A DNA stretch of 64,000 nt from Pratylenchus scribneri (lineage: Eukaryota; Nematoda; Chromadorea; Rhabditida; Pratylenchidae). The position numbers were made by a program, and so were the translations under genes. Positions 6,689-32,256 of the stretch are shown here, in pieces; the first letter of the stretch is position 1; the number at the start of each line of letters is the position of its first letter. The notes beneath the pieces were generated by a model, which ran no database searches, was not told where the DNA came from, and was given only the letters and a program-made list of their open reading frames with translations. The stretch covers positions 1 to 64,000 of the forward strand of contig JAQSEB010000002.1 of NCBI GenBank assembly GCA_030063045.1, in the 5' to 3' direction.

Positions 6689-7067
6689 ATGATGGCAGAA
6701 TTGAATAACTTATGGATTTTGGATGGAAATGGATTACATTTCGTGTGTATATTCAAATTCATGATTTAATACAATTGTTTTAAACCTCATCAGCAGAATG
6801 GGAAAGTCTGCAAATAAAAATGGAATTTTCAAAATGTTGAAAATATAAAAACTATAAACATCACCGCTGAAATATTTTTAAATTAATTTTGGTATCATTT
6901 TGAATCCCTCATTCACAGAACTTTTCGAAACGCGAACTTTAAATTTCAAGGTCAGTTTTACTGATTACAATTATGTCTAATATTTGCCTGTGCCTTACAT
7001 TTGTTTGTTTAAAAGAAATTGACTTCATCGAAGTGTACGAAAATGATTCGGATAGTCAAGGGTTGAA
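6689..7067. other. left flank of the Polinton; no gene assigned
   Basis: AT-rich. A short open stretch with possible splice sites runs at 6920-6950 and 7013-7067, but I cannot link it to a family. The last six bases, 7062-7067 (gttgaa), are the left target-site duplication. Confidence 0.4.
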
Positions 7068-7137
7068 AGCAGCTACTTATATTTTTTAATCGCGAAATAA
7101 AATTGTGAAGTACATAAAATAGAGCCCAAACCTTTCC
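7068..7137 (+). repeat. Polinton left terminal inverted repeat
   Basis: Matches 32181-32250 in inverse orientation over 70 bp with one mismatch (position 7115). Beyond it similarity falls to a shared pyrimidine-rich character only. Confidence 0.95.
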
Positions 7138-7479
7138 CCTTTCAAATTAATCCCATTCAAAATTCACCCTCCTACCCAATCCCAATTCTTTCCCTTCCCT
7201 TATAATCCCAACCTCCCATTTTCCTTTCCAATCAATATTATAAATAAAATTTATCAAAACGAAATGTAAAAGTTTACAAAAAATTGTATGAATTGTATTT
7301 TATAAAAATAAAATTGTTTGTATTTTATAAAAATAAGATTGGTGAATTTTGCCAGCTTGAAAATGTTCTGCCGCTCAATTTATTGGCATGGAATATTCGA
7401 TAATAAAAATGACGGCTGCACAGCATTTTCCTTTAAAATTTATAAATAATTAAATTTCTATTTTATGAAAAAAACCTTT

Positions 7480-8890: not shown

Positions 8891-9439
8891 ATGTCTTTGC
8901 CTACATTAACTTCTCAAATTCTACCGGAAATCGATTTCAATATCCTTTCAACTGGAATTACTATTAATTCTAATGAACGACTTTCTACTCCTCGCTTCAT
9001 TCCTTACGATCAATGTGGTCGTTGTAGGGAATGTAAAGCAACTGAAGTGGAATTGGATTTTATCGTGACTAAGGATGGAGTGACAGTTTATTGTAGTCGA
9101 ATTAAAGGACCAAAATTTGTTGCATTTGATAATACATATGAACTTCCAGGTTACTGTTTCTTTCGGATTAAAAATAAAGGACGTGTTTTCAATATCCCAC
9201 ATGGAGAAATGCCACCTCCAAAAAATATGCAACCTAATATTCCACCTTACTCAAATATTCCTCCTCCAAATATGATTTCAAAACCGGACTTTGAACAATT
9301 TCTTGGGCATTTGAATGCTATGAGATATCCAATGAATTCACAAATCCAAAAACCAAATAAAGAAACTAATGAAAATGAAGATATAAAAATCATTGAAGAA
9401 TTTCTTAAACCAGACATCCCATTAAATCAATCATTATAA
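8891..9439 (+). CDS. Polinton protein with domain shared by the 461-aa protein, 182 aa
   Basis: No known family recognised. Residues about 18-100 align by eye with residues 15-97 of the 461-aa protein at 18312-19697: both have an ILxxGIxIxS start, RF(I/L)PY, a central block ending V(Y/F)CSRI, then the P(G/D)Y(C/T)(F/L)F block. So the two genes share a module of about 85 residues. Here it is followed by a Pro-rich linker and a short acidic tail. A CxxC pair (CGRCREC) near residues 42-48 is absent from the paralogue. It sits just ahead of the packaging ATPase in the morphogenesis cluster. No signal peptide or membrane segment; function unknown. Confidence 0.65.
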   Translation: MSLPTLTSQILPEIDFNILSTGITINSNERLSTPRFIPYDQCGRCRECKATEVELDFIVTKDGVTVYCSRIKGPKFVAFDNTYELPGYCFFRIKNKGRVFNIPHGEMPPPKNMQPNIPPYSNIPPPNMISKPDFEQFLGHLNAMRYPMNSQIQKPNKETNENEDIKIIEEFLKPDIPLNQSL

Positions 9440-9472: not shown

Positions 9473-10132
9473 ATGTTTGATCAACATTTATTTGAAGATA
9501 AAGATTTAAAATTCAAATTACCATTTGGAATGATAGTTTCTGGCCCTACATCTAGTGGAAAAAGTAGCTTTCTTCTAAAGTTTATTACCGAATCGGATGA
9601 GCTCATTGACCCAAAACCAGCATCAGTACTTTATTGCTATGGTGAAATGAATCAATTAATACCAATTTTTCAAAAAGCTGGTGTTGGTATCTATTCTGGT
9701 GTTCCACCAGAAGAGATAATAAAACAGCAACCAAAACCTTTATTACTTATTCTTGATGATTTATTACTTTCTACACCAGAGGCTTATCTCTCATCTCTGT
9801 TTACGGCTAAAAGTCATCATCAAAATTTTGGTATAATTTTTGTAACCCAAAACCTATTCGAGAAGAAGATCAAAGTTGCTAGACAGAATGCTCAGTATTT
9901 GGTATTGATGCGTTCGCCTAATTCGGCTCTATCTATAAGGAATATTGGTGTACAACTATTTCCGAAACAGCTCGATTACTTTTTGGATGCCTACAAACAG
10001 GCGACAAAAGAACGATATGGTTATTTGCTTATTGATATGCATGCTTCTTCTGATTCATTATTGCGTTTAAGAACAAATATATTTAAACGAGACGAAGAAA
10101 AAATTATATTCATTCCAAAAAATGGTTCATAA
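9473..10132 (+). CDS. genome-packaging ATPase, FtsK/HerA (A32) type
   Basis: 219 aa. Packaging ATPases of Polintons, adenovirus-like and other double-jelly-roll viruses drive viral DNA into preformed capsids. Walker A is GPTSSGKS at residues 24-31, Walker B is LLILDD at 91-96, followed by the conserved Gln of GIIFVTQNLF (about 120-129). Length and order fit the A32-like clade. Start: AAAATG at 9473, 33 bases after the previous stop. The 3' end overlaps the next ORF by 11 bases, which suggests tight coupling or a shared transcript. No damage seen. The family call is very secure; placement within the packaging step comes from family knowledge. Confidence 0.93.
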   Translation: MFDQHLFEDKDLKFKLPFGMIVSGPTSSGKSSFLLKFITESDELIDPKPASVLYCYGEMNQLIPIFQKAGVGIYSGVPPEEIIKQQPKPLLLILDDLLLSTPEAYLSSLFTAKSHHQNFGIIFVTQNLFEKKIKVARQNAQYLVLMRSPNSALSIRNIGVQLFPKQLDYFLDAYKQATKERYGYLLIDMHASSDSLLRLRTNIFKRDEEKIIFIPKNGS

Positions 10133-11965: not shown

Positions 11966-13057
11966 ATGGATAAAATTTTGAAAAATATTTACAATAATCC
12001 TTCAAATCCTGCCGGTTTTGCTGGCCAAGATTCATTGCTTAGGGAAGCGCAAAAAGAGAATCCTAATATTAAAAAAGAGGATGTAGAACACTTTTTGCAG
12101 GGTCATCGTACATATACTCTTATGCGACCTAGGAGAATACATTTTCCTAGAGTTAAGACAATTGCTTCTGGTTTTATGACCCATGTACAAGTGGATTTAG
12201 CTGATATGCAAGCTTTGGCCAAGGATAATCAAGGAAATCGATACATGTTAGTTGGAATTGATGTACTTTCAAAAAGAGTATTTGCCGTTCCACTTAAAAC
12301 TAAAAAAGCCGAGGATATGGTTAAAGCATTTGAAGAACTGATTAAACAAATGCCGATGAAACCTATGGTTATCTATTCAGATTTGGGAACGGAATTCAAA
12401 AACCGTCTAATGAATAATTGGTTTAAAAATGAGGATATTCAAAAGTATGAAGCAAGTTCCACTTATCAAAAAGCTGCAGTAGCGGAAAGAGCTATCCAAA
12501 ATTTAAAACAACGCCTTTATAGATATTTTGCTGAAAAACAAACCCAAAAATGGATAGATGTTCTACCGAAAATCGTTAATGCAATCAATCTTTCAAAAAG
12601 TAGAGTGCATGGGATGAGACCTGTAGATGTCAATTTTAAGAATGTTCAACGAGTATGGAAGAAAATTTATGGAAATGCATTGAGTATAAAAAATGATAAA
12701 CCAAAAATAAAATTCAAAGAGGGTGATTTTGTAAGAATGAGTCGAGGCAAAGGTAAATTTGAGAAAGGATATTATACAAACTGGGGAGACGAAATATTGG
12801 AGATTGATAAAATCAAGAAGAATTCTAAACCTGTCGTGTATAAGGTTAAAGATGAGAAAGGCGAACCGTTCAAGGAAAATTTCTATGCGGAAGAATTATC
12901 GAAAGTACGGAAAGATGAAGAGACATCTTATAGAATTCAAGAAATTTTGAAAACGAAAAAGAGAAGAGATGGAACCATGGACTATTTAGTAAAGTTTATT
13001 GGCTATTCAGAACCAGAATGGATACATCAATCTCAGCTAGTTGGAATAGATACATAA
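11966..13057 (+). CDS. retroviral-type integrase with C-terminal chromodomain
   Basis: 363 aa. The rve core shows the catalytic triad D77 (QVDLADM), D139 (YSDLGTEFKN) and E174 (VAERAIQN), with 34 residues between the last two. This enzyme would process the AG...CT ends and make the 6-bp staggered joins seen at the termini. After the core comes a small basic domain (about 245-315) and a chromodomain at about 322-358 (YRIQEILKTK, DYLVKFIGYSEPEW), which may steer insertion to modified histones. The N terminus lacks an obvious full HHCC zinc finger. ORF intact, start AAAATG. Central gene of the element's mobility; high confidence. Confidence 0.95.
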   Translation: MDKILKNIYNNPSNPAGFAGQDSLLREAQKENPNIKKEDVEHFLQGHRTYTLMRPRRIHFPRVKTIASGFMTHVQVDLADMQALAKDNQGNRYMLVGIDVLSKRVFAVPLKTKKAEDMVKAFEELIKQMPMKPMVIYSDLGTEFKNRLMNNWFKNEDIQKYEASSTYQKAAVAERAIQNLKQRLYRYFAEKQTQKWIDVLPKIVNAINLSKSRVHGMRPVDVNFKNVQRVWKKIYGNALSIKNDKPKIKFKEGDFVRMSRGKGKFEKGYYTNWGDEILEIDKIKKNSKPVVYKVKDEKGEPFKENFYAEELSKVRKDEETSYRIQEILKTKKRRDGTMDYLVKFIGYSEPEWIHQSQLVGIDT

Positions 13058-16017: not shown

Positions 16018-17367
16018 ATGGAAATTTTATCAAAAATTTTAAAATTCTTAAACATGACTTATCATAAAATTGACAACGATAGTATAAACTCAATTACAAA
16101 TGCATTGGATTTTTTCCAAATTCCACCAACCAATGTCAGTGTCTCATCGGCTAAAGTTTTTGAAATTTTAACCAGCAATCCCTTAACCGATACACCGTAT
16201 CATTTTAAAATCCATTCATCACAGAATTATATTGACCTTTCAAAATGTTATTTGCTCACAGAATTTCGTATACGAAAAAAGATTGGCGGAGTATGGACAA
16301 ATCTTCCAGCAAACGAGAAGGTAGCTCCTATTCAATTAATTGGAAACACATTTATCAATAATATGAGGATTAGCATTAATGGGCGGGAAATATTCAATTC
16401 AAATTCTTTAATGGCCTATAAATCCTATTTTTCGCATGAACTATCTTATAGTATGGAAGCAAAAAATAGTCATTTGAATGCAGCGGGATACCATGGGGAC
16501 AATGGAGATACCTTAGAAGGAGGAGCCGGTTTTGATTTAAGAACAAAATTATTTGAAAAGAGTAGAACAATTCAATTCATTTCAAAAATCGATGCGGACT
16601 TATTTTGCCAACCGCTCTATCTGATTTCACATTGCGAAATCGATATTGAAATTTTACCAAATCACACAAAATTTTTAGTAATAGCCCCAGATGCTGTTGA
16701 TACAGACGAATATGAATTTGAAGTAATGAACTGCAAACTCTATGTCAAAAAAGTAGATTTGATGGATGGATTGTCTTTAGATATTGCCCGAAAACTAGAA
16801 ATGAAACCCGCTAGATATGCCGTACGAAAATCAATGATGAAATCTTTATTCATTAGTCAAGGAAGATTTGAATTTAATGCAAATCTCTTTATGGATCAAA
16901 TACCAAGGAGAATTATACTGGGATTGGTATCTAACGAAGACTATCTCGGGCATATCAAGAAAAGTCCTTTCAATTTCCAACCTTTTGATGTGCGAGAAAT
17001 CAGTATTATTGCAAATGGCCGGACATACCCACAAGTTCCATATGATCTGGATTATAATAAAGGAAAATTTTCTCGCCCATTCAATGATATGAATGAGGCA
17101 ATTGGATTTACAAATACGAATAATGGAAATGGAATAACTCGTGTTCAATTTGGCAAAACGCATTGCATCTATGTTTTCAATATGACTAATAGTGGCGAAG
17201 ATCAAGGCGGTCTTTTTGACTTGATCAAAAATGGTACAACAGCTGTTAACATTAAATTTGCGTCACCAGTTCCAGACGGCGGCCTAATGTTGATTGTGAT
17301 GGGCGAGGCTGATTCACTGATTATGCTAGATAAGAATCGAACGATTTCTAGCGATACCACTATTTAA
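16018..17367 (+). CDS. major capsid protein, double jelly-roll
   Basis: 449 aa from ATG 16018, or 437 aa from ATG 16054; the second start begins MTYHKIDNDS and fits the family start better. Conserved blocks: LDFFQIPPTNVS near the N terminus, the YIDLSKCYLLTEFRI strand, APIQLIGNTFINNMRISING, and RRIILGLVSNEDYLG in the second jelly roll. This is the hexon-equivalent subunit of an icosahedral capsid. Full length for the family and uninterrupted, which supports a recently functional element. It follows the protein VI-like gene and precedes the small membrane protein and protease. Confidence 0.93.
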   Translation: MEILSKILKFLNMTYHKIDNDSINSITNALDFFQIPPTNVSVSSAKVFEILTSNPLTDTPYHFKIHSSQNYIDLSKCYLLTEFRIRKKIGGVWTNLPANEKVAPIQLIGNTFINNMRISINGREIFNSNSLMAYKSYFSHELSYSMEAKNSHLNAAGYHGDNGDTLEGGAGFDLRTKLFEKSRTIQFISKIDADLFCQPLYLISHCEIDIEILPNHTKFLVIAPDAVDTDEYEFEVMNCKLYVKKVDLMDGLSLDIARKLEMKPARYAVRKSMMKSLFISQGRFEFNANLFMDQIPRRIILGLVSNEDYLGHIKKSPFNFQPFDVREISIIANGRTYPQVPYDLDYNKGKFSRPFNDMNEAIGFTNTNNGNGITRVQFGKTHCIYVFNMTNSGEDQGGLFDLIKNGTTAVNIKFASPVPDGGLMLIVMGEADSLIMLDKNRTISSDTTI

Positions 17368-17436: not shown

Positions 17437-17871
17437 ATGTTTTTATTATATTCCATTCTAATGGCATTTATTTTGCCAATATTTTCCTTAGCAGTAGACA
17501 ACAATGTCAATATAAAAGAAATTCCAGAATTCGCCTATTATCTTAGTCAAGTGGATAATATTACATCAATAATTGGTCAAGAAAATTCATCAAAACCTAT
17601 TGGAGAGCTGATTCACCCAATCGTCGCTACACCTTTCAGTTTCCCTATGCCTTTTTTGTGTAAAGAAAACCCTAAAGATGGCAATTTATATGGTCATATA
17701 TATTGTTGGGGAATGCTAATATTATTTGTTCTACTAATTGGAAGTTTAATTTTCTATCAAATTCGATCAATCATTTGGTTTAAATCAAATATTAAAGGAA
17801 TCAATACAAATAAAAATAAAAATCAAGAGAATATAGAACTGGGATCCCCATATGGACGAGGAGCAAATTAG
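17437..17871 (+). CDS. small type I membrane glycoprotein of the Polinton, 144 aa
   Basis: Residues 1-19 form a signal peptide (FLLYSILMAFILPIFSLA). An ectodomain of about 70 residues has N-glycosylation sequons at N41 (NIT) and N50 (NSS) and cysteines 75 and 90. Residues 91-108 are a membrane helix (WGMLILFVLLIGSLIFY), followed by a basic, then polar, cytoplasmic tail. No family recognised. It lies between the major capsid protein and protease, so it is probably expressed with virion genes; its 3' end overlaps the protease by 20 bases. It could be an envelope or membrane-remodelling protein. It is too short for known fusogens and has no clear fusion loop. Confidence 0.65.
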   Translation: MFLLYSILMAFILPIFSLAVDNNVNIKEIPEFAYYLSQVDNITSIIGQENSSKPIGELIHPIVATPFSFPMPFLCKENPKDGNLYGHIYCWGMLILFVLLIGSLIFYQIRSIIWFKSNIKGINTNKNKNQENIELGSPYGRGAN

Positions 17872-18301
17872 TAAAATTCTTCATCAAAATCAAAAGACAA
17901 GCAATGTGTTTCGAGGATGCTTTCCATGCAATCTGATACCTAATCCTTCAACAATGAAACATCCTTCTGCACTTATTGTAAATTTAGATCCTCATATATT
18001 CCGAGGGTCACATTGGGTGGCTATCTTTACAAATGGAATGGAAAGACAAGTGATTTATTTTGATAGCTATGCCTTACCCATAAACTTGTTAATAAATAAT
18101 TTTTTATCAAAATTTCCTAAAATTATAAGAAATAAAAGATCATATCAAGCATATAATGCAGAAACTTGTGCTCAATATTGTATCCTTTTTATTTATTTCC
18201 TATCACTTGGTTATTCTTTTGATTATTTCCTTGAATTACTTGATAATTGTGGACAATCTGATTTATTTGTACGTAATATGATTAATAAAATTATTGAATA
18301 A
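17852..18301 (+). CDS. adenain-like maturation cysteine protease
   Basis: 149 aa, Ulp1/adenain fold. Active-site residues: H54 (RGSHWVAIF), D71 (IYFDSYALP), Q99 and C106 (ETCAQYCILF). The Q-to-C distance of seven and the His position match the adenovirus protease plan, with Asp in place of the adenain Glu. Such proteases cleave capsid and core precursors at Gly-Gly-type sites, which occur in the pX-like and protein VI-like proteins of this element. Smaller than adenain (about 200 aa), as usual in Polintons. It overlaps the membrane protein by 20 bases, and its stop is the last of the + strand morphogenesis cluster. Confidence 0.92.
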   Translation: MDEEQISKILHQNQKTSNVFRGCFPCNLIPNPSTMKHPSALIVNLDPHIFRGSHWVAIFTNGMERQVIYFDSYALPINLLINNFLSKFPKIIRNKRSYQAYNAETCAQYCILFIYFLSLGYSFDYFLELLDNCGQSDLFVRNMINKIIE

Positions 18302-18311
18302 ACAATTAAAT

Positions 18312-19697
18312 TTATGAATAACTAATATTTAATTTTTCCATAAAACTCACACATTCATTTAGTCTTTCATTCTTTAATGGTTTCACAATTGGAGTAAAAT
18401 TGTATTTGACTGAAATATGCAAGAATGCTGTAGCATATGCGATTAATCGAAACATTTTATTGAAATCTACGTCCGAATCGCGCGAAGGCCATTTAGCCAT
18501 TTCTGGATAATTCTTTCTATAAAGCTCAATTTCCATTACTGTAGGACGAAGATGTTTCTTGTCAGCAGGAGGGTCGGGTGGAGGTGTTCGCCATGTGTAA
18601 TTAAGTAATTGACAATAATATTCAAAAGCGGAACCCCCATATTTTCGAATCAATTTTATAATTCTTGTAGGATTGATTTCCCAATTGCATAAATGATCAT
18701 AGTATTCAATAAGACGCTTAGTTAAGTATTCTAATTCTGGGTATTGTATTGCTCTAAAACTGCCAAGCTCAGCTTGTTCATTTTCTTCCTTCATTATGGC
18801 TGTAGCATTGATTAATATAGGATGTTTGTGGAATTCTTTGATAGGTAAATGCAAATATGTAGCTATACCAGCAATTATTTGAAGAATTGAATCAATTTCG
18901 CTCGATATATGCCTTGGTTGAGTTCGTTCTATTTCTGGATATTCATAAATCTCCTTTTTATTTCGATTATAAAGTTCAATTTCCTCTTGTGTAGGTATTA
19001 AAAACTCATCATCTTTCTTCAAAATAGCAATTCTATGGGGATGTATATTATATAAGCCCTGTTGTAGAACGTGATCGTCAATTAGTTGTGAAATGCGATC
19101 ATCAGAAAAAGTAGGACAATCTAATTTTTGTAGAAAACTGATAATAAATGGATCGCAATTTTCTTTAAGCATATTAAAAACATTTGTAGTAGGAAAATGA
19201 CCTGTTATTATTGCAGCTAAAGCAAGTAAGGTATCAGAGAGAAATGCTAAAAATTCCCAATTGTAATAAAGTCGGTCGAAATCTTCAAATCGGAATTCAC
19301 AACAATTTGGCGTAGATGGTTGGCCATCTAAATCAGGAAATTTGACAATTTCTGGTGCATTCCAATCATAGTCCTTGACAAAGATAGAGCGCGGATTCTC
19401 ATGCTCAACATAAAATTTCTTCCATTTATGGTGTATTGTAAATAATGTATAATCGGGTATGTCATGACATCTTTCTGAAAAAGGTATGTCTTGGCATGTA
19501 TCAATTCGAGAACAAAATACTATAATTCCGCGACAATTAATTGAGAAAGACAATTCAATATCCTGGATAGAATCTTCCTCCAAATTGTATGGTAAAAAAC
19601 GTGAAGAATCACCAAAACGATGACTCCTTATTGAAATTCCATTGTTTAATATAAAAAATTCAGCATAAGGAGGAAAATCTTTAGAGAATATTAACAT
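18312..19697 (-). CDS. Polinton fusion protein of unknown function, 461 aa
   Basis: Converges tail to tail with the protease, with only 10 bases between stops. Three parts are visible. Residues 15-97 are the module shared with the 182-aa protein at 8891-9439. Then come two related helical segments, each starting PTxxEIELYxxN and ending with IAGIATYLHLPIK or IAYATAFLHISVK. A similar hydrophobic signature (IAAGAAYLNHSMELK) occurs in the 172-aa protein at 28384-28902. So the protein looks assembled from two modules that also exist alone in the element. No catalytic motif, signal peptide or membrane segment is visible. Start AAAATG; a TATA-like motif lies about 35 bases upstream. Function unknown. 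Confidence 0.65.
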   Translation of the reverse strand: MLIFSKDFPPYAEFFILNNGISIRSHRFGDSSRFLPYNLEEDSIQDIELSFSINCRGIIVFCSRIDTCQDIPFSERCHDIPDYTLFTIHHKWKKFYVEHENPRSIFVKDYDWNAPEIVKFPDLDGQPSTPNCCEFRFEDFDRLYYNWEFLAFLSDTLLALAAIITGHFPTTNVFNMLKENCDPFIISFLQKLDCPTFSDDRISQLIDDHVLQQGLYNIHPHRIAILKKDDEFLIPTQEEIELYNRNKKEIYEYPEIERTQPRHISSEIDSILQIIAGIATYLHLPIKEFHKHPILINATAIMKEENEQAELGSFRAIQYPELEYLTKRLIEYYDHLCNWEINPTRIIKLIRKYGGSAFEYYCQLLNYTWRTPPPDPPADKKHLRPTVMEIELYRKNYPEMAKWPSRDSDVDFNKMFRLIAYATAFLHISVKYNFTPIVKPLKNERLNECVSFMEKLNISYS

Positions 19698-20504: not shown

Positions 20505-20999
20505 TCATTTGTATTTTGAATTAATCCATGTTGATCGATAATTTTTTGGCTGCTCGATTGAATGTAGTGTTTCTTCAAAAAATTTTTTCATATTTGGGTT
20601 CCTCTTCTTTTCCTTTCGAATTTTACAGGGCCATTTAACAATGATTTGATCGACAAAATTTTTAAGATACTCGGTACGCTGAGCATCTTTTTGTCGTTGT
20701 TGGCCGGCAGTTCTTTGAACTTTAGGAAGCCAATGGTCGTCATTTCTAAAGCATTTCACGCATCCGTGTATGTCACATCCGTTGATTTCTATTATAATTT
20801 TTTCCGTTCGCCCATCCTTGGTTGTTTGTTCATAATACCCGTCAACAGAAAATCGGCCAATTCTTTTTTCACCCTCTTTGGAATAAAATGCCTGGATTTC
20901 AGTTTTATTTAATTTCTCTAGCCATCTCAAATATTGGTAGGCAATTATTGACTGCTGCCCATTTATTCGAATCATGATTGAGGAATATTTCGGACACAA
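20505..20999 (-). CDS. stand-alone copy of the PolB insert domain, 164 aa
   Basis: Aligns by eye with residues about 778-905 of the PolB at 23878-28065: shared GEK+IG-x2-xVDG, then IIE(I/F)NGC-x2-HGC-x2-CF, TAG-x2-RQKD and +TEYL/RLEYF. This is the block between exonuclease and palm in PolB. Its D53 (SVDG) and E71 (IIIEINGC) resemble the acidic pair of PD-(D/E)XK nucleases, and PolB keeps the same residues (D818, E829); that nuclease reading is inference. The copy is diverged, not a recent duplication, has its own start and TATA-like motif, and is intact, so it looks selected. It may be a separate nuclease or a partner of PolB. Confidence 0.75.
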   Translation of the reverse strand: MCPKYSSIMIRINGQQSIIAYQYLRWLEKLNKTEIQAFYSKEGEKRIGRFSVDGYYEQTTKDGRTEKIIIEINGCDIHGCVKCFRNDDHWLPKVQRTAGQQRQKDAQRTEYLKNFVDQIIVKWPCKIRKEKKRNPNMKKFFEETLHSIEQPKNYRSTWINSKYK

Positions 21000-21230: not shown

Positions 21231-21629
21231 CTATTCCTTTTCAAGCTTTTCCACAAACTTCTTTGGTGTAGCTGGTGCCATTAAATTGGTCATCCAGCAA
21301 TTTACACGAACACAACGAGGGCAAAGATGAATTTTTACATCCACACCATTGTTGTTTCGAACCCATTTTTCAGTAGAATGGAACAGTTTGTATTGACAAC
21401 TTCCACAAAGACGAAACATTAAGACCGTTTTACCTTTGAATAGTTTCCACATTTGTTTCTCCTCAGTTGGTTCCAATTTGCGTTGCAAATCTGTAATAGG
21501 TACTGCTTCAATGTGTTGGTTAATGGAAGCAGCTGGAATATTATTCGTTTGCTCCATAGCTTGAACTTCCTCAACTTCATTTTTTGCTTGCTCGGTTTTA
21601 GTGGGAATAGGAGAACTTGGAGAACTCAT
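21231..21629 (-). CDS. zinc-ribbon-like Polinton protein, 132 aa
   Basis: The first 55 residues are disordered and acidic. The C-terminal half has a CxxC pair (LCGSCQYK) and, about 25 residues on, a second (HLCPRCVRV), the spacing of a small zinc ribbon. KTVLMFRLCGSC resembles no family I can name. Zinc ribbons often bind nucleic acid or polymerase, so a transcription-factor role is possible, but this is inference. It has its own TATA-like motif about 60 bases upstream and is divergent from the innexin gene, with the 20-bp tandem array between them. Confidence 0.6.
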   Translation of the reverse strand: MSSPSSPIPTKTEQAKNEVEEVQAMEQTNNIPAASINQHIEAVPITDLQRKLEPTEEKQMWKLFKGKTVLMFRLCGSCQYKLFHSTEKWVRNNNGVDVKIHLCPRCVRVNCWMTNLMAPATPKKFVEKLEKE

Positions 21630-21767: not shown

Positions 21768-21978
21768 ATTACGAAATAATATTCTTAATTACGAAATAAT
21801 ATTCTTAATTACGAAATAATATTCTTAATTACGAAATAATATTCTTAATTACGAAATAATATTCATATTTAAGAAATAATATTCTTAATTACGAAATAAT
21901 ATTCTTAGTTACGAAATAATATTCTTAATTACGAAATAATATTCTTAATTACGAAATAATATTCTTAATTACGAAATT
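21768..21978. repeat. 20-bp tandem array attacgaaataatattctta
   Basis: About ten copies in strict register with few substitutions, between the divergently transcribed zinc-ribbon and innexin genes. Position suggests a bidirectional regulatory array. The TTACGAAAT core also occurs singly near 28220 by the PolB promoter. Confidence 0.85.
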
Positions 21979-22068: not shown

Positions 22069-23077
22069 ATGTATTTTATCCCATTTATGAATAATGTGTT
22101 TAAAATTTTTAAAAATAAATATTCTAATCCTATTGAACGTCTTAATTATTATATTACGCCTACTATTTTATTAATTTTTGCTGTTTTCCTTTCTGCCAAA
22201 CAGTATTTTGGGAAACCAATTCAATGTTTAATACCAACCGAATTCAAAAATGGTTGGGATGATTATGTAGAAGATTATTGTTTTGTTCAAAATACATATA
22301 TAATTGCAAATAAGGAATTATTTAGTATTGACACCGCCCTCTTTGGAGATTTTTCAAATGAAAAGAAGGAAATAAATTATTATCAATGGGTTCCATTAAT
22401 GCTAATTCTACAAGCTTTAATGTTTTATGTGCCCAACATAATTTGGAAGATTTGTAAACACTTTTTTAATTTGGAATTTATTATCAAGGATGTATCCAAA
22501 ACTAATTTGATTCCTGAACGTTTACAGAAAATTTCAGCAAATCTTAAACAAAATTTTATTTACTCAAAATGTCTACCAATTGATTGTTCTATTACAATTG
22601 CATATGCATTTGTCAAATTGCTCTCTTTATTGAATTTATTATTAATTTGCCCTGCTTATGCTATTTATTGGACAGAACTATATCTTTTGGGGTTTGTCTG
22701 CAATAAAAATGATTTTGTTTGGAAATGGATGGGTCGATTCCCCAATGTTTCCTCGTGTTACGCTTTGTGATTTCAATGTTTATAGATTGGCTGCTGATCA
22801 TCACTATACAGTTCAATGTGTTTTAATGATTAATATGTTTAATGAGAAAATTTACTTATTTTTATGGTACTGGTTTTTCTTATTACTCACTGGATCTTTA
22901 ATTGATATCCTATTTTGCATTTATAATTCAATAATGGCACCACTTTTATGGAAAAAGAGACTACAAAAAATATATGGTGAATCATATTTAACACTGGATG
23001 GCTTATTCATCTTAAAAATGATTGAACAAGAGATGAATGGTGGTGAAAAAACCATTAAGTTAATTAGAGAAATATAA
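22069..23077 (+). CDS. viral innexin (gap-junction protein), one frame break
   Basis: Innexins form invertebrate gap junctions and hemichannels. The first frame (22069-22770) has the N-terminal helix, first membrane segment, KQYFGKPIQC and DYCFVQNTY (two extracellular cysteines), the innexin signature YYQWVPLMLILQALMFYVP in the second segment, and a third segment near residues 188-215. The second frame supplies FPRVTLCDF, YTVQCVL and NMFNEKIYLFLW (second cysteine pair, fourth segment) and the tail ending DGLFILKMI. The frame changes by one base at the C run 22740-22743. All four segments and both cysteine pairs are present across the two frames, so the break is either recent or a sequencing indel. 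Known viral innexins occur in polydnaviruses of wasps; one in a Polinton is unusual. Source is probably the nematode host. Confidence 0.92.
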
Positions 23078-23177: not shown

Positions 23178-23699
23178 ATGGTTCTTCTAACAGATGAATG
23201 TTCCCGTCTTCTAAATTGTAATGTAAAATCAATACGTGATAAAATTAATCATCCTTCAAATCAAGCTATCTTACATCAAGCCCTAATTGGTCGGAAAGCT
23301 CAAACTACATATTCCGATCGTTATGGGATGAAGAAAACAATTATAATAGGAGGTATTACAACAAAAGGCGCTGATAATATTCCAGCATATGGTCGACTTT
23401 CAAGACCATTCAATATATGTGTTACTGCATATTTTTTTTGTCGGCATGGAATTAAACTTCACCATCCATTTCATCCCTGTTTGATTGAAATTTATCCAAG
23501 AGGAGAGAATCGATACTATCCGCTTGAATTGATGGAATTAATTGAAGAAAAACACGAGCTAAAAACCTTATTACCAAATTCTAATTATTCAAAAAAATAT
23601 CTCGGAAAAATGTTCACTACAATTGAGGATAAAGAAAGCGAAAACAATGATTCAGATGAAGAAAGCTGGAGAGCATGCTGTAGTCAAGATACATGGTAA
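23178..23699 (+). CDS. PAZ-domain-only protein, Argonaute-like, 173 aa
   Basis: Residues about 15-127 follow the PAZ pattern of nematode Argonautes: ALIGRKAQTTYSDRYGMKK (loop and strand before the 3'-end pocket), IGGITTKGAD, the VTAYFFCRHGIKLHHPFHPC helix-strand block, and RYYPLELMELI, matching the (Y/L)PxE(L/V) end of PAZ. PAZ binds the 3' end of small RNAs. There is no MID or PIWI domain, no PAZ-proximal Dicer domain, and only a short acidic tail (DSDEE) after it. A free PAZ could sequester small RNAs or their loading factors and so dampen host RNA interference; that is inference. ORF intact with its own TATA-like motif. Confidence 0.75.
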   Translation: MVLLTDECSRLLNCNVKSIRDKINHPSNQAILHQALIGRKAQTTYSDRYGMKKTIIIGGITTKGADNIPAYGRLSRPFNICVTAYFFCRHGIKLHHPFHPCLIEIYPRGENRYYPLELMELIEEKHELKTLLPNSNYSKKYLGKMFTTIEDKESENNDSDEESWRACCSQDTW

Positions 23700-23877: not shown

Positions 23878-26800
23878 TTAATACGTATAGCCATAATCAA
23901 GAACAGTGAAATCAGAAGGTCTTACAATTCCTTTCGCAACGAAAGGCTTATAGATTTTAGTAAGAGGAATAGAATATACAATTCCTTTTTTAACATTAGG
24001 ACGTAAAAAATTGGGGTAAAGAATAGGTATTTCAGGGGGTATTCCAGTATTTGCGAACTGTAGAACACTTTTCTTGAATGTCTCAAAGCGAAGACCCTGC
24101 TCGCTTAATACATTTTGATTCAATGTCATTCCGCGAATTTTTAGTACATATTCGAATTCAGCGAACGGTTTATTTTTAGCTTGTAATTTTATTGCGTATT
24201 GTTTGGCACCTCCACTTACATATTCGAGAATATTATGGTTTGGATATTCGTCGGTCAATCCACCAAGGTGGGGCGAAGTTTTTAGTGGATTTTTATCTTC
24301 CGGATGGACATAAATGACCGAGTCTGTGTCGGTATAGAGAAGCCGACATCCAGAGGAACGGACAATTTTTTGCATTAATTTCAATAAATGTAAACGAGCG
24401 CAACTGGTTGTCCAAAGTGATATGACCACATTGGAAGATTCATGAGCTTCTGTCCATTCCTTTTTATCCAAATAAGTGATCATAATTACATCCTTTGACA
24501 ATTCATCTATATCTGTGACATCAATTTTCCGGTTATCTAGATGTTGCCGAAGAACATAGGGATCATCTGTGATAATAGTTTGAGCCAATCCATAATTTCT
24601 TAAGCCAAATCGACCCCAAAGAGCATTTAGAAGCATTTTATCTGTCTCTCGAAGCCCTTTATTTGGGATCATCTTTTTGCGATCTAGTTCAATACCAAAC
24701 TTTTCTTTAGTCTCTCTAATGAATTGATCTTCGGCCATTGTATTCCCTTTAATGTTTGAATCAAAACCGGATGCATGAAATTTACCTGCCAAATAAATAC
24801 GCATGTATTCTCGAAATAATTCCTTGTCCTCTTTTTCATATATAATTGCCCGATAGAATTTGCTCACTACATAACCATTCTTTAGTGCCTCATTCAATTC
24901 CACAGAAGTACACGTGCTAACCCATCCGCGTTGCCTATCTGTATGTTTGCATTCATAATCTTCTTTAACACCTCCATGAGGGTATTCTTTGGCGCATTTT
25001 GAACACAAAGGAAATAATAGACGGGCATCATCTTTTTTATCCAATTTCATTGGTAAAATTGGAACATCAATTTTACGAGGAGGAGTAATAAAAACTTTGA
25101 GAATGGCCAACGGATACGGATTATGTTCTGGCTTGTTCCACCTTACATCCTTTGGGCCATTTGGTGGAATAAACACTTTGGGAATGCCAACTGGATATCC
25201 ACGAAGACACATTTCTTCATGCATAAAATTAGTATATGGATAGAGACTTGTGACATCATAATAGCTGATTTTCTCTCCTAATTTTGGTTTATAATATAAT
25301 GATACAGGTCCAGTCCTTCCTCCAAAAAAGCAACTCCTTATGTCAATTGGTCCTTCATCTAAATATTCATCAAATTTCTTTTTCATTTCATTGTCCCTTT
25401 CTAACATTTGATCAACTTGGCATCCCCAGTAAACTTCGACTTGATATCCCTGCTTTCTAAAATATTCTAATCTTGTATTATCTTTCTGACGATGCCATCC
25501 AGCTGTTTTTCCGGTGATCATTTTCTCCTGTTCATCGGGAAAGCAATGGGGACACCCATGGTATTGGCATCCATTAAATTCAATAATTTTATTTTCGCTA
25601 TCAATAAACCCATCAACTTGATATGTGCCAATTTTCTTCTCCCCTCCCCTTGAATGTGCATGTTGGATTTCTACATTGTGAAATTCGCCATACCACTTTA
25701 AAAATTTCATTCCAATTGTGCTCTGTTTTTCGGCCTTATCATATCCTCTATCAGTCACCATTGCCAAATGATTCTCTTTTAAATGGTTCATTCTAAATAA
25801 TTTCATGCATGCCGAAGCAATGGTCATTGATTGTCGTAGAGGATCAATACCAGCATGTGGTTCGGAATATATCTTTTTGAATCCAAATCGTTTCTTTACT
25901 CTTTTGCTTCTAGACATAAAACTTTCACGAAATGCCACCAATGCTGCCATAAGTATATCAACATCGTTCAAACAATAACTGGCCAACGCTTCATCCAAGA
26001 AAAATCCATCGTTATAATGCTCATCATACCGTTTGTCAAATGCCTTTCTTTTAGCTGGCATAAAACCTTTGTAAAGATAATCCTCTTTAGGTGGGAGTGT
26101 TTTCATTTTCCTTCCATAGTTGTCTGTTCGATTGGCAAGGTATGGAAAATAAGGTTTGTCTTGTACATCTAAATCAAACATTGGAACAAGCGTAGCAAGT
26201 GGTCTGCTAAGCAGATTGAAGCTGTCCCAAAATTTAAGTTCTGAGTATTCTCCCTCTTTTGCTTCAATTAATAATTCATAAAGTTTATTTCCTCTTTTTG
26301 TCATTCGTGGATTAATTCTTCTCTTGTAAAGTTCCCGACAAATAAACATAAAATCAAATCGGCCACCATTATGCGCAAAAGCATGTGTTTTATATTTTTC
26401 CGGTAAATCATTCAAAAGCCAATTTACAAATGATTCTATTGGATCAATAGTTTCAAAATGATAATCAACACTTGTCTCTTTAAATGGCCGATGGCCGAAT
26501 GTTACAGTTCTATTTTTGCCACATATTTCACAGTCATAACTGCCTTGCATATCCCTTTTCCATTCTTCATTTCTTATGCATTTTGGACATGAAACTTTTG
26601 CTGCAATGAAATTAACTTTATGTTGTCGTCGATTATCATTAGGAGTTTTAATGTCCATTGGGTGATTTTGAGTTGTTTCAAAATCAAATGCGACAATTCG
26701 ATATGCTTTTTGTTTCCAAGGTTCTAGAGGAGTGATGAAACATCCATCTTCTTTATTATGCCAGATTCTACATTTATTGCACCAAGTTTCATCACATTCA

Positions 26801-28065
26801 TGTCCTTCTTTCCCATTCTCTAAATATACTTTTTTATTCCATATAACTCCACATTTTTCGCATTTCTTTGATACATCACAAAATACAGTATCTTTATGAT
26901 GTTGAAAGCATAATCGATTCTTGAAGATTTTATTGCATTCTGTACATTTTTGATGGAAGCCATCTAGTTTTAAACATGGTAGAGAATGGTCCATTTTTGA
27001 ACATAGCTGGCAACGCGAACGACAATACATTGAATGATTGCTTGGGGAATTATAGGTAGATTCACATGATAAGCAATATGATTGATGAAATAATCCATAT
27101 GGTTTTTTAACAGCATCAAAATGTTTCTGTTCACTATTATGGTAAAGAATAATTGGTATCGTATAATTTTCTGGACCATATTTGAATTTTGGTTGATAAT
27201 GTCCGAGATGTCCAAATATAAATAATTTAAAGCGATATTGACCAGCGAATTCCCTGTTAAAATGATCTATTATAATTGGACCATAGATACAAGCATCGTA
27301 TTCTCTCAATGATGGATCAATGTTAAGTTTATGCATTAAATCCCAAGTATCTGCTTTCCATTTTCCACTTCTTTTTACATAATCTGATTTTTGCCATTTA
27401 CTATATCCACGTGTATTTCTTGCCACAATCGCTTGTATTGCATAGAATAAGCAATAAGCATCTTTGTTTTCTACTTTTATTAAGGCTTTTTCCCTGATCA
27501 TATGATGAACTTGTTTTAATTTTCGTTTGCCGCCACCAATTATTTGTTGGGTGGTTGGTAATCTACTACGATCAACATTGTAAATTTTGATACTGAATGG
27601 CTCACCCCATAGTGTTAAACCTTGTTGTTTTTTTGATTGCGCAACTTTTAGAAATTCATTGAGTACAACATCAATTGTATTTTCTGTATATGGTCGGTAA
27701 GGAAGATAAATATGTGGATCAAGTAGAGTACTGCGTATAGTAATTGCCATCAAATCCGGCTCAATTCCATTTTTTTGTGCTTCTTTTCTCGATTCATTTA
27801 AGCAATAGTCAAATATTCCACCCAATAAAGTTTCTGGGTCATTGGGGATATCAACAATTTGGAAATGGGAATCGTATTGAGATAAAGAAAATTTTTGGTT
27901 AAATGTTGATACTCCATCTAACTTTTGAATATATTGCTCCAAAGCATGCGTTTTTTTATGGTGAATAACTTCATTGTATACAAATGAAGGCGGGGGAGTC
28001 AATGCTCTATGAAGACGAATTCGCTTAATTGGGGGAGAATTTGAACGCGTATGTAAACGCTTCAT
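23878..28065 (-). CDS. protein-primed family B DNA polymerase
   Basis: 1395 aa, one uninterrupted ORF. Replicates the element with a terminal protein as primer. Exonuclease: ExoI DFETT (D461, E463), ExoII HNGGRFD (N566, D571), ExoIII YCLND (Y697, D701). Polymerase: motif A DVTSLYP (D937), motif B LLNALWGRFG (about N1147), motif C YTDTDS (D1245, D1247). A block at about 780-905, with VDG and IIEFNGCQYHGC, sits between exonuclease and palm and has a stand-alone paralogue at 20505-20999. The N-terminal 450 residues hold several CxxC clusters and, at about 195-330, KDAYCLFYAI followed by KHFDAV, which resembles the Cys and His of the OTU-like protease domain reported in Polinton polymerases; this part is less certain. 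Main - strand gene of the right half. Confidence 0.96.
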   Translation of the reverse strand: MKRLHTRSNSPPIKRIRLHRALTPPPSFVYNEVIHHKKTHALEQYIQKLDGVSTFNQKFSLSQYDSHFQIVDIPNDPETLLGGIFDYCLNESRKEAQKNGIEPDLMAITIRSTLLDPHIYLPYRPYTENTIDVVLNEFLKVAQSKKQQGLTLWGEPFSIKIYNVDRSRLPTTQQIIGGGKRKLKQVHHMIREKALIKVENKDAYCLFYAIQAIVARNTRGYSKWQKSDYVKRSGKWKADTWDLMHKLNIDPSLREYDACIYGPIIIDHFNREFAGQYRFKLFIFGHLGHYQPKFKYGPENYTIPIILYHNSEQKHFDAVKKPYGLFHQSYCLSCESTYNSPSNHSMYCRSRCQLCSKMDHSLPCLKLDGFHQKCTECNKIFKNRLCFQHHKDTVFCDVSKKCEKCGVIWNKKVYLENGKEGHECDETWCNKCRIWHNKEDGCFITPLEPWKQKAYRIVAFDFETTQNHPMDIKTPNDNRRQHKVNFIAAKVSCPKCIRNEEWKRDMQGSYDCEICGKNRTVTFGHRPFKETSVDYHFETIDPIESFVNWLLNDLPEKYKTHAFAHNGGRFDFMFICRELYKRRINPRMTKRGNKLYELLIEAKEGEYSELKFWDSFNLLSRPLATLVPMFDLDVQDKPYFPYLANRTDNYGRKMKTLPPKEDYLYKGFMPAKRKAFDKRYDEHYNDGFFLDEALASYCLNDVDILMAALVAFRESFMSRSKRVKKRFGFKKIYSEPHAGIDPLRQSMTIASACMKLFRMNHLKENHLAMVTDRGYDKAEKQSTIGMKFLKWYGEFHNVEIQHAHSRGGEKKIGTYQVDGFIDSENKIIEFNGCQYHGCPHCFPDEQEKMITGKTAGWHRQKDNTRLEYFRKQGYQVEVYWGCQVDQMLERDNEMKKKFDEYLDEGPIDIRSCFFGGRTGPVSLYYKPKLGEKISYYDVTSLYPYTNFMHEEMCLRGYPVGIPKVFIPPNGPKDVRWNKPEHNPYPLAILKVFITPPRKIDVPILPMKLDKKDDARLLFPLCSKCAKEYPHGGVKEDYECKHTDRQRGWVSTCTSVELNEALKNGYVVSKFYRAIIYEKEDKELFREYMRIYLAGKFHASGFDSNIKGNTMAEDQFIRETKEKFGIELDRKKMIPNKGLRETDKMLLNALWGRFGLRNYGLAQTIITDDPYVLRQHLDNRKIDVTDIDELSKDVIMITYLDKKEWTEAHESSNVVISLWTTSCARLHLLKLMQKIVRSSGCRLLYTDTDSVIYVHPEDKNPLKTSPHLGGLTDEYPNHNILEYVSGGAKQYAIKLQAKNKPFAEFEYVLKIRGMTLNQNVLSEQGLRFETFKKSVLQFANTGIPPEIPILYPNFLRPNVKKGIVYSIPLTKIYKPFVAKGIVRPSDFTVLDYGYTY

Positions 28066-30204: not shown

Positions 30205-31464
30205 TTACATGCCAGCAAGGCGAATTGGAAAGCAGTCTTGTTCGCTGTCAATAGTTCTTTTACAGACCGCACATTGGGGAATTTTTGATTCAAAAAGATT
30301 GTTATTAAGACAATTAAAGCAGCTATAAGCGTGGGAGCAGGATAAAACCACATTCACACTTTCTTCAAGACAAAAAATACATCTTGTTCCCTGTAATTGC
30401 CCTTCTTCAGTTCCCAAGTCATATTGAACTTTTGCAGCAGCCTCTCTTGCTATTCTGCATTTATTAATTGCATTGCGTTCCATTTTGATTGCAAATTCTT
30501 TATTATTTTGTTCTGATGCTTCTTTGGCCTTTTTTCGTGCCAGTTGTGCCTCTTTCATTGCATTCCTAGCCAAATATTGATCGCAACGCTTCTGTTAGTG
30601 CAAAACAGGTGGAATTAAATTGGGGCAAATAGGCAAAATTAAATTGGGGCAAGCAAAACAGATGGAATTAAATTGGGGCAAGCAAAACAGGCGGAATTAA
30701 ATTGGGGCAATCAAAACAGGCGGAATTAAATTGGGGCAATCAAAATAGGCGGAATTAAAATGGGACAAACAAAACAGGCGGAATTAAATTGGGGCAAGCA
30801 AAACAGATGGAATTAATTTGGGGCAAGCAAAACAGGCGGAATTAAATTGTGGCAATCAAAATAGGCGGAATTAAAATGGGACAAACAAAACAGGCGGAAT
30901 TAAATTGGGGCAATCAAAATAGGCGGAATTATATTGTGGCAAGTAAAACAGGCGGAATTAAATTGGGGCAAGCAAACCAGGCGGAATTAAATTGGGTCAA
31001 ACAAAACAGGCGGAATTAAATTGGGACAAGCAAAATAGGCGGATTAATTCACAAATCAGAAGAAATGAAATTACCTTCCAGAAAGTAGGGGGCCATTTTC
31101 GGCGATTGATCGCTGAGAGTTGTGAAATTGCGAAGTTTGCACGCTTGTGTTCGCGGTAGCCAAATTGTAAGACAATCTCTTTTGCTATGTTTTGTTCCTT
31201 GATTTTTTCTTCTAATGCCACATTCTTTTCTCCCTCTCTTATAAACTTAAGAAAGTTCAAAATTCAAAATATTATAATTAATAATTTACTGCTTCTTGCG
31301 CATTCTTTAGATCGAGTATTAATCTGGAATTTTCTCGCAACGTTTGGCCATACACATGCTTTAATATTGCGATTTCGATGCGAAAGTTAGCTAAAGAATG
31401 CATGAAAACTAATCTGGGTTTAGAAAAAAATACCTATTTCTTGTGCTCTTGTTGTTAAGGGCAT
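30205..31464 (-). CDS. coiled-coil RING-finger protein, four exons, 235 aa
   Basis: Exons on the - strand: 31464-31434, 31408-31290, 31245-31075, 30591-30205; three GT-AG introns, all phases consistent. The C-terminal RING has the C3HC4 plan: CIFCLEE, then CSHAYSCFNC, then CAVCKRTID. Such RINGs are E3 ubiquitin ligase modules, here closest in look to the IAP/neuralized type; there is no BIR domain. The middle (residues 55-170) is rich in Ala, Lys, Glu and Arg and probably helical. The last intron (483 bp) is almost wholly the 30600-31045 minisatellite. It is the rightmost gene of the Polinton. A spliced cellular-type gene inside a virus-like element suggests capture from a host; it may redirect host ubiquitination, which is inference. 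Confidence 0.75.
30600..31045. repeat. 28-bp minisatellite filling a RING-gene intron
   Basis: About fifteen copies of aaacaggcggaattaaattggggcaagc with substitutions. It occupies nearly all of the intron 31074-30592. Confidence 0.9.
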
Positions 31465-32069: not shown

Positions 32070-32183
32070 TTATATTAATTGATTCGGAGTTGGGAAAGTT
32101 GGGAATGGAAATTGATTGGGAGAGGATTATATTAATTGATTCGGAGTTGGGAAAGTTGGGAATGGAAATTGATTGGGAGAGGA
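32070..32183. repeat. 57-bp direct repeat, two copies, beside the right TIR
   Basis: 32070-32126 and 32127-32183 are near-identical (each contains gattcggagttgggaaag). Purine-rich on this strand; the left end of the element is pyrimidine-rich at the matching place. Confidence 0.9.
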
Positions 32184-32250
32184 AAGGTTTGGGCTCTATT
32201 TTGTGTACTTCACAATTTTATTTCGCGATTAAAAAATATAAGTAGCTGCT
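32181..32250 (-). repeat. Polinton right terminal inverted repeat
   Basis: Inverse complement of 7068-7137, one mismatch in 70. Followed at once by the duplication gttgaa (32251-32256). Confidence 0.95.
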
Positions 32251-32256
32251 GTTGAA

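Follow-up and report, generated by a model that had tools for sequence, protein, structure and literature searches.

Viral innexins are known mainly from polydnaviruses. The vinnexins of ichnoviruses are delivered by parasitoid wasps into caterpillars, where they are thought to act on host cell coupling. Nematode Polintons (Mavericks) are known to carry host-derived or fusogen cargo. Here, we describe an innexin gene inside a Polinton of the nematode Pratylenchus scribneri, located in the first 64,000 nucleotides of contig JAQSEB010000002.1 (assembly GCA_030063045.1), a stretch that was analysed whole and is referred to as the window. The locus resembles the vinnexins, as these are generally described, in placing an innexin in a virus-derived system, but vinnexins are wasp-delivered, whereas the element around this gene has its own integrase and polymerase. 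It shares with the nematode Mavericks the kind of element and differs from them in its cargo, an innexin. We propose, with a probability of about 0.65, that a captured host innexin has been kept as an accessory gene in two Polinton lineages and makes channels when the element is active. With a selected innexin in two Polinton lineages, cell coupling would become a further target of an animal DNA element that already has genes for its own replication and integration, and there would be a testable clue to how Polintons move between cells and into germ lines.

The gene lies on the forward strand in two overlapping pieces in different frames, the first of 233 residues (22,069–22,770) and the second of 139 residues (22,658–23,077). 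Both match the Innexin family (PF00876, cut-off 25 bits), with E-values of 3.9e-43 (148.4 bits) and 1.4e-31 (110.4 bits), and cover profile positions 2–220 and 184–318, jointly 2–318 of 333. Intact Polinton copies reach 286.4 bits. The hallmarks named in an earlier, sequence-only reading of the window are present in the translations, namely the YYQWVP motif and both extracellular cysteine pairs, C-x17-C in the first loop and C-x16-C in the second. Three of the four loop cysteines are invariant in 16 intact relatives and the fourth is found in 15 of them. On these matches and motifs a chance resemblance is excluded, and we regard the identification as a conserved Polinton innexin as close to certain.

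Comparison with solved structures points to the same family. Among solved proteins the first piece matches C. elegans INX-6 alone (E-value 7.1e-20), and an intact relative matches INX-6 at 2.5e-35. A predicted model of an intact relative (predicted local distance difference test score, pLDDT, of 64.8) has four membrane helices, and its best fold match is again INX-6 (PDB 5h1q, 5h1r). The Polinton proteins share the family, the four-helix fold and the loop cysteines with INX-6 and other nematode innexins, but are intronless, only 24–25% identical to INX-6 in structural alignments, and sit inside a virus-like element. The predicted fold also resembles pannexins and LRRC8. Among viral protein models in BFVD, three entries matched the fold of an intact Polinton innexin, A0A067ZV72, A0A067ZU31 and W6JKV6 (E-values 2.1e-14, 8.3e-9 and 1.1e-4), although at only 16–21% identity; W6JKV6 is poxviral (Alphaentomopoxvirus acuprea) and the other two are unnamed.

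The element surrounding the gene is a Polinton. It is bounded by terminal inverted repeats (7,068–7,169, forward strand, and 32,149–32,250, reverse strand; 86% complementary) and by a 6-bp target-site duplication, GTTGAA, read from the sequence at 7,062–7,067 and 32,251–32,256. Within these ends lie a DNA polymerase B (23,878–28,065, reverse strand; PF03175, E-value 1.6e-34) and an integrase (11,966–13,057, forward strand; rve, 4e-8), accompanied by a packaging-type ATPase and a cysteine protease whose scores are both modest. The ATPase (9,473–10,132, forward strand) matches Adeno_IVa2 at 4.4e-5 (22.9 bits, cut-off 21) and Pox_A32 below cut-off at 3e-4, while the protease, of the adenovirus/Ulp1 type (17,852–18,301, forward strand), matches Peptidase_C5 at 7.3e-5 (23 bits, cut-off 21.3) and Peptidase_C48 at 1.5e-4. 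Polymerase B with integrase, ATPase with protease, and inverted repeats with a 6-bp duplication together identify the class.

As the sequence-only reading had stated, the innexin lies well within the element, between a zinc-ribbon gene and a PAZ gene and behind a TATA motif. The first of these neighbours is a divergently oriented, Cys-rich, zinc-ribbon-like open reading frame (ORF; 21,231–21,629, reverse strand), assigned by eye, with no Pfam match and with relatives in other Polintons; a 20-bp tandem repeat of 10.5 copies (21,768–21,977) separates it from the innexin. The second encodes a small PAZ-domain protein (23,178–23,699, forward strand; PF02170, E-value 3.4e-9). TATAAA begins 54 bases upstream of the innexin ATG.

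The left inverted repeat matches seven places in the genome: both ends of three copies, that of the window (on C2) and those on C41 and C64, and a single end on C13. With the same ends as in the window, the C64 copy is flanked by a 6-bp duplication of its own, TCTCTC, and the C41 copy by TAAAAT. Because the three copies are separate insertions in the assembled sequence, each with the innexin inside, the chimeric assembly join that had been named as a possible source of the arrangement is ruled out.

The association of innexin and Polinton recurs across the genome. A search of all 227 Mb for the Innexin family, with 121 of 272 candidates scored, gave at least 154 matches, mostly single exons or pieces, and a search with the first innexin piece of the window gave 98. 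From these, 27 Polinton innexins were picked, the window copy and 26 others. Twenty are open in a single frame with no introns and seven are broken (the window copy, L008, L009, L010, L024, L025 and L026). Some open copies are identical or nearly so, such as L001/L002 and L015/L016, and independent copies therefore number fewer than 20. Using the 100 strongest of 150 PAZ matches, a Polinton PAZ gene was found within 5 kb of all 27 innexins; conversely, 27 of these 100 PAZ matches have an innexin within 8 kb.

We compared innexin presence with the identity of the ATPase to that of the window, for the 150 ATPases listed from among 330 candidates. All ten listed ATPases at 99–100% identity have an innexin no more than 26 kb away, as do all three at 91–92% and 11 of 13 at 65–69% (the two without are on C127 and C79), but none at 71–77% (0/60), 56–59% (0/13) or 45–53% (0/51). 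For the innexins on C11 and C176 no listed ATPase is that close, nor was one found within 26 kb of the 22 host innexin loci checked. Scans of viral contigs in IMG/VR with the innexin piece, an innexin alignment, the polymerase and the ATPase returned no confirmed relative, in a collection that may hold few such elements.

The Polinton innexins fall into two groups at different sites in the element, group A (13 copies, including the window) and group B (14 copies). Identity between the groups is 29–35% (24–26% for the truncated L008), compared with 77–84% and 49–54% for subgroups within A and 45–48% between the two subgroups of B. Each of the 13 group A innexins diverges from the Cys-rich gene and is followed, in its own orientation, by the PAZ gene; the polymerase is found on the PAZ side in six copies, on the Cys-rich side in three, about 13 kb away in one, and is unlisted in three. 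Innexin and polymerase are arranged head-to-head in 12 of the 14 group B copies, the exceptions being the C5 copy, with no listed polymerase, and the second C55 innexin, which belongs to a tandem duplicate. The group B PAZ gene is convergent with the innexin in 12 copies and is found past the polymerase in the other two (C50 and C110). Elements on C203, C173 and C175 have the Cys-rich gene directly adjoining the PAZ gene with no innexin match between, a junction that we read as the group A site without its innexin.

Several further features of the layouts were observed. C55:576269-583544 (L013, L014, L057) holds a tandem pair of innexin-PAZ units 4,284 bp apart. Between the window and the elements at C41:52-70 kb and C15:1568-1586 kb, synonymous divergence (dS) is only 0.18–0.21 for the ATPase and 0.6–1.4 for the innexin, PAZ and Cys-rich genes, and the Cys-rich/innexin/PAZ trio is reversed relative to the ATPase in six of the 13 group A copies; the elements seem to exchange and flip gene blocks. 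By eye, four group B loci (L013, L017, L018, L022) have in common, ahead of the innexin ATG, a TATA-like motif preceded by CCGCCC and GGGCGTGG/GGGCGTGT boxes; these boxes were not seen in the window or in four group A loci compared in the same way.

We then placed 15 of the 27 Polinton innexins in a tree with 22 host rows and INX-6, leaving out near copies (L002, L005, L014, L016, L021, L023) and broken ones (L008, L010, L024, L025, L026 and the window copy). Group A (support 99/98) and group B (100/100) each form a clade, and the two lie together on one side of a branch (85/84), a support that becomes 89/90 once INX-6 is dropped together with six host rows that are long or rich in gaps. They adjoin four intron-bearing host loci, L032, L034, L035 and L046 (91/92). 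Host locus L048 groups with INX-6 (100/99). No other innexin turned up among solved sequences, and INX-6 is the one C. elegans protein in the tree. Trees joining A or B to the nearest host subfamily were not rejected by the approximately unbiased (AU) test (p of 0.25 and 0.10), and both tree runs warned of long branches meeting at group B. One capture of a host innexin is favoured by the trees, with two captures possible; the Polinton copies come together in them and away from every host innexin placed. Since the neighbouring host subfamily lies in the same genome, the capture would appear to be separate from that of the vinnexins.

Open Polinton innexins are single frames, unlike the host innexins of this genome, which occur as several exon-like pieces, in line with the earlier remark on missing introns. 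Third-position G+C is 0.24 in an open Polinton innexin and 0.19–0.29 in four other ORFs of the element, in contrast to 0.46–0.49 in three frames that hold exons of the closest host innexins. Together with the divergence among copies, this supports the suggested long residence in the element.

Selection on the protein was assessed from the ratio of nonsynonymous to synonymous divergence (dN/dS) in 20 pairs of open copies, four of which were too distant to use. The eight pairs with dS of 0.7–1.3 have dN/dS of 0.076–0.126, which indicates purifying selection on the protein; these pairs share rows and represent three branch sets. With borders set by hand from the predicted model, the extracellular loops are the most conserved part: of 51 invariant residues, 25 fall within these loops, which take up 106 of the 342 positions, and four within the 98 positions of the cytoplasmic loop and tail. 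This pattern fits a protein that is still building and docking a channel.

The window copy itself is 99.8% identical in DNA to the intact sister L007. Its first ORF agrees with the L007 protein over 192 residues, to 22,644, and the second frame reads like L007 from its own first codon at 22,658, so that the frames part at about 22,645–22,657. The C run at 22,740–22,743, which had been suspected as the frame problem, lies some 90 bases beyond this break. Programmed frameshifting was ruled out as a general feature, as 20 of the 27 copies are single-frame and the broken sisters are broken elsewhere. The break may be decay or a sequence error, and the window copy presumably no longer makes the full protein.

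We propose the following scheme. A host innexin, in intronless form, would have entered the Polintons of this nematode in one event or possibly two, and two lineages would have retained it as an accessory gene. In cells with an active element the protein would reach the surface and form hemichannels, which would dock with, or mix into, host innexin channels, opening or changing the coupling to neighbouring cells. That forming channels with host membranes is the job of the gene seems to us somewhat more probable than not. Innexin-family channels are permeable to small solutes of about 1 kDa and not to virus particles, and passage of particles is therefore an unlikely benefit. A likelier one would be the sharing or draining of ions, nucleotides and danger signals, or changed metabolites between cells.

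Several observations weigh against this proposal. Seven of the 27 copies are broken, and in the subgroup of the window three of four are, each at a different place in the gene, although the PAZ and polymerase genes are still open in the C2, C41 and C64 copies. On C127 the element retains only a short innexin remnant beside the polymerase (18.4 bits). The eight young pairs (dS below 0.2) have dN/dS of 0.058–0.379, indicating constraint that is weaker in part, and the second-loop tryptophan kept by group A is lost in group B. A conserved fold, here a predicted one, would not by itself prove docking with host innexins, and the whole of the evidence comes from one genome.

The loss of this tryptophan and the strong divergence of group B, with the low constraint on the cytoplasmic loop and tail, would also suit a protein that joins host channels and blocks them as a dominant negative, isolating the active cell. 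Such a blocker would likewise be kept by selection, and the present data do not separate block from opening; nevertheless, a docking channel would be expected to keep its loop cysteines and the region of the YYxW(V/L/I)-type motif, both of which are retained, and we consider blocking unlikely. Less probable still is an undocked, viroporin-like hemichannel in the membrane of the infected cell that alters calcium or ATP release. Pannexins and LRRC8, which the fold also resembles, work undocked, but conservation here is highest in the extracellular loops, which form the docking face in INX-6.

That the gene is a passenger, a host copy caught once and carried without use, would account for the broken copies and the C127 remnant, but sits poorly with 20 open copies, with dN/dS of 0.08–0.13 at dS near 1, and with the survival of the gene in two layouts whose copies have diverged to about 30% identity; we give it little credence. 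An assembly artefact, or a host retrocopy landed in a single element, draws on the two broken frames of the window copy and can be set aside in view of the three same-ended insertions with different 6-bp duplications, the 26 further Polinton copies, and host innexins that are all distant in the trees, none being near-identical. Neither of the two outcomes that the sequence-only reading had named as refuting, a chimeric join or a gene confined to this Polinton and near-identical to a host innexin with decayed introns, was encountered.

A broader version of the accessory channel gene is more speculative, and we hold it to be doubtful. Here, the captured innexin would be a standard accessory gene of nematode Polintons, coupling the element-active cell to its neighbours, possibly the germ line, and preparing or calming them before particles arrive. 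Worms have soma-germline junctions, and, if this version were true, innexin coupling would give the elements a way to spread and be inherited that adds to, or replaces, an envelope fusogen. Since intact copies are many, introns are absent and related elements without the gene are present in this genome, both capture and function are open to direct test.

The remaining genes of the window element include a 449-residue ORF at the position where a capsid gene is expected (16,018–17,367, forward strand), with no Pfam match over cut-off, and a RING-finger protein near the right end (30,205–30,573, reverse strand; PF13920, E-value 1.2e-6). The small PAZ protein is widespread in the Polintons of this genome, with at least 100 matches at E-values below 1e-16, and could perhaps disturb silencing by binding the ends of small RNAs. 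By eye, the ORF at 20,505–20,999 (reverse strand) resembles a piece of the polymerase B of the element and is perhaps a remnant of another element, and the ORFs at 18,312–19,697 (reverse strand) and 8,891–9,439 (forward strand) have similar starts (RFxPY ... CSRI) and are perhaps paralogues. Genome-wide, herpesvirus-type glycoprotein B, a fusogen, was matched at six places, all below cut-off and none on the contig of the window (C90:258269, C203:676707, C175:7272, C50:540428, C23:1437636 and C23:2487974). These sit in open frames of 805–2,684 residues and perhaps belong to other virus-like elements.
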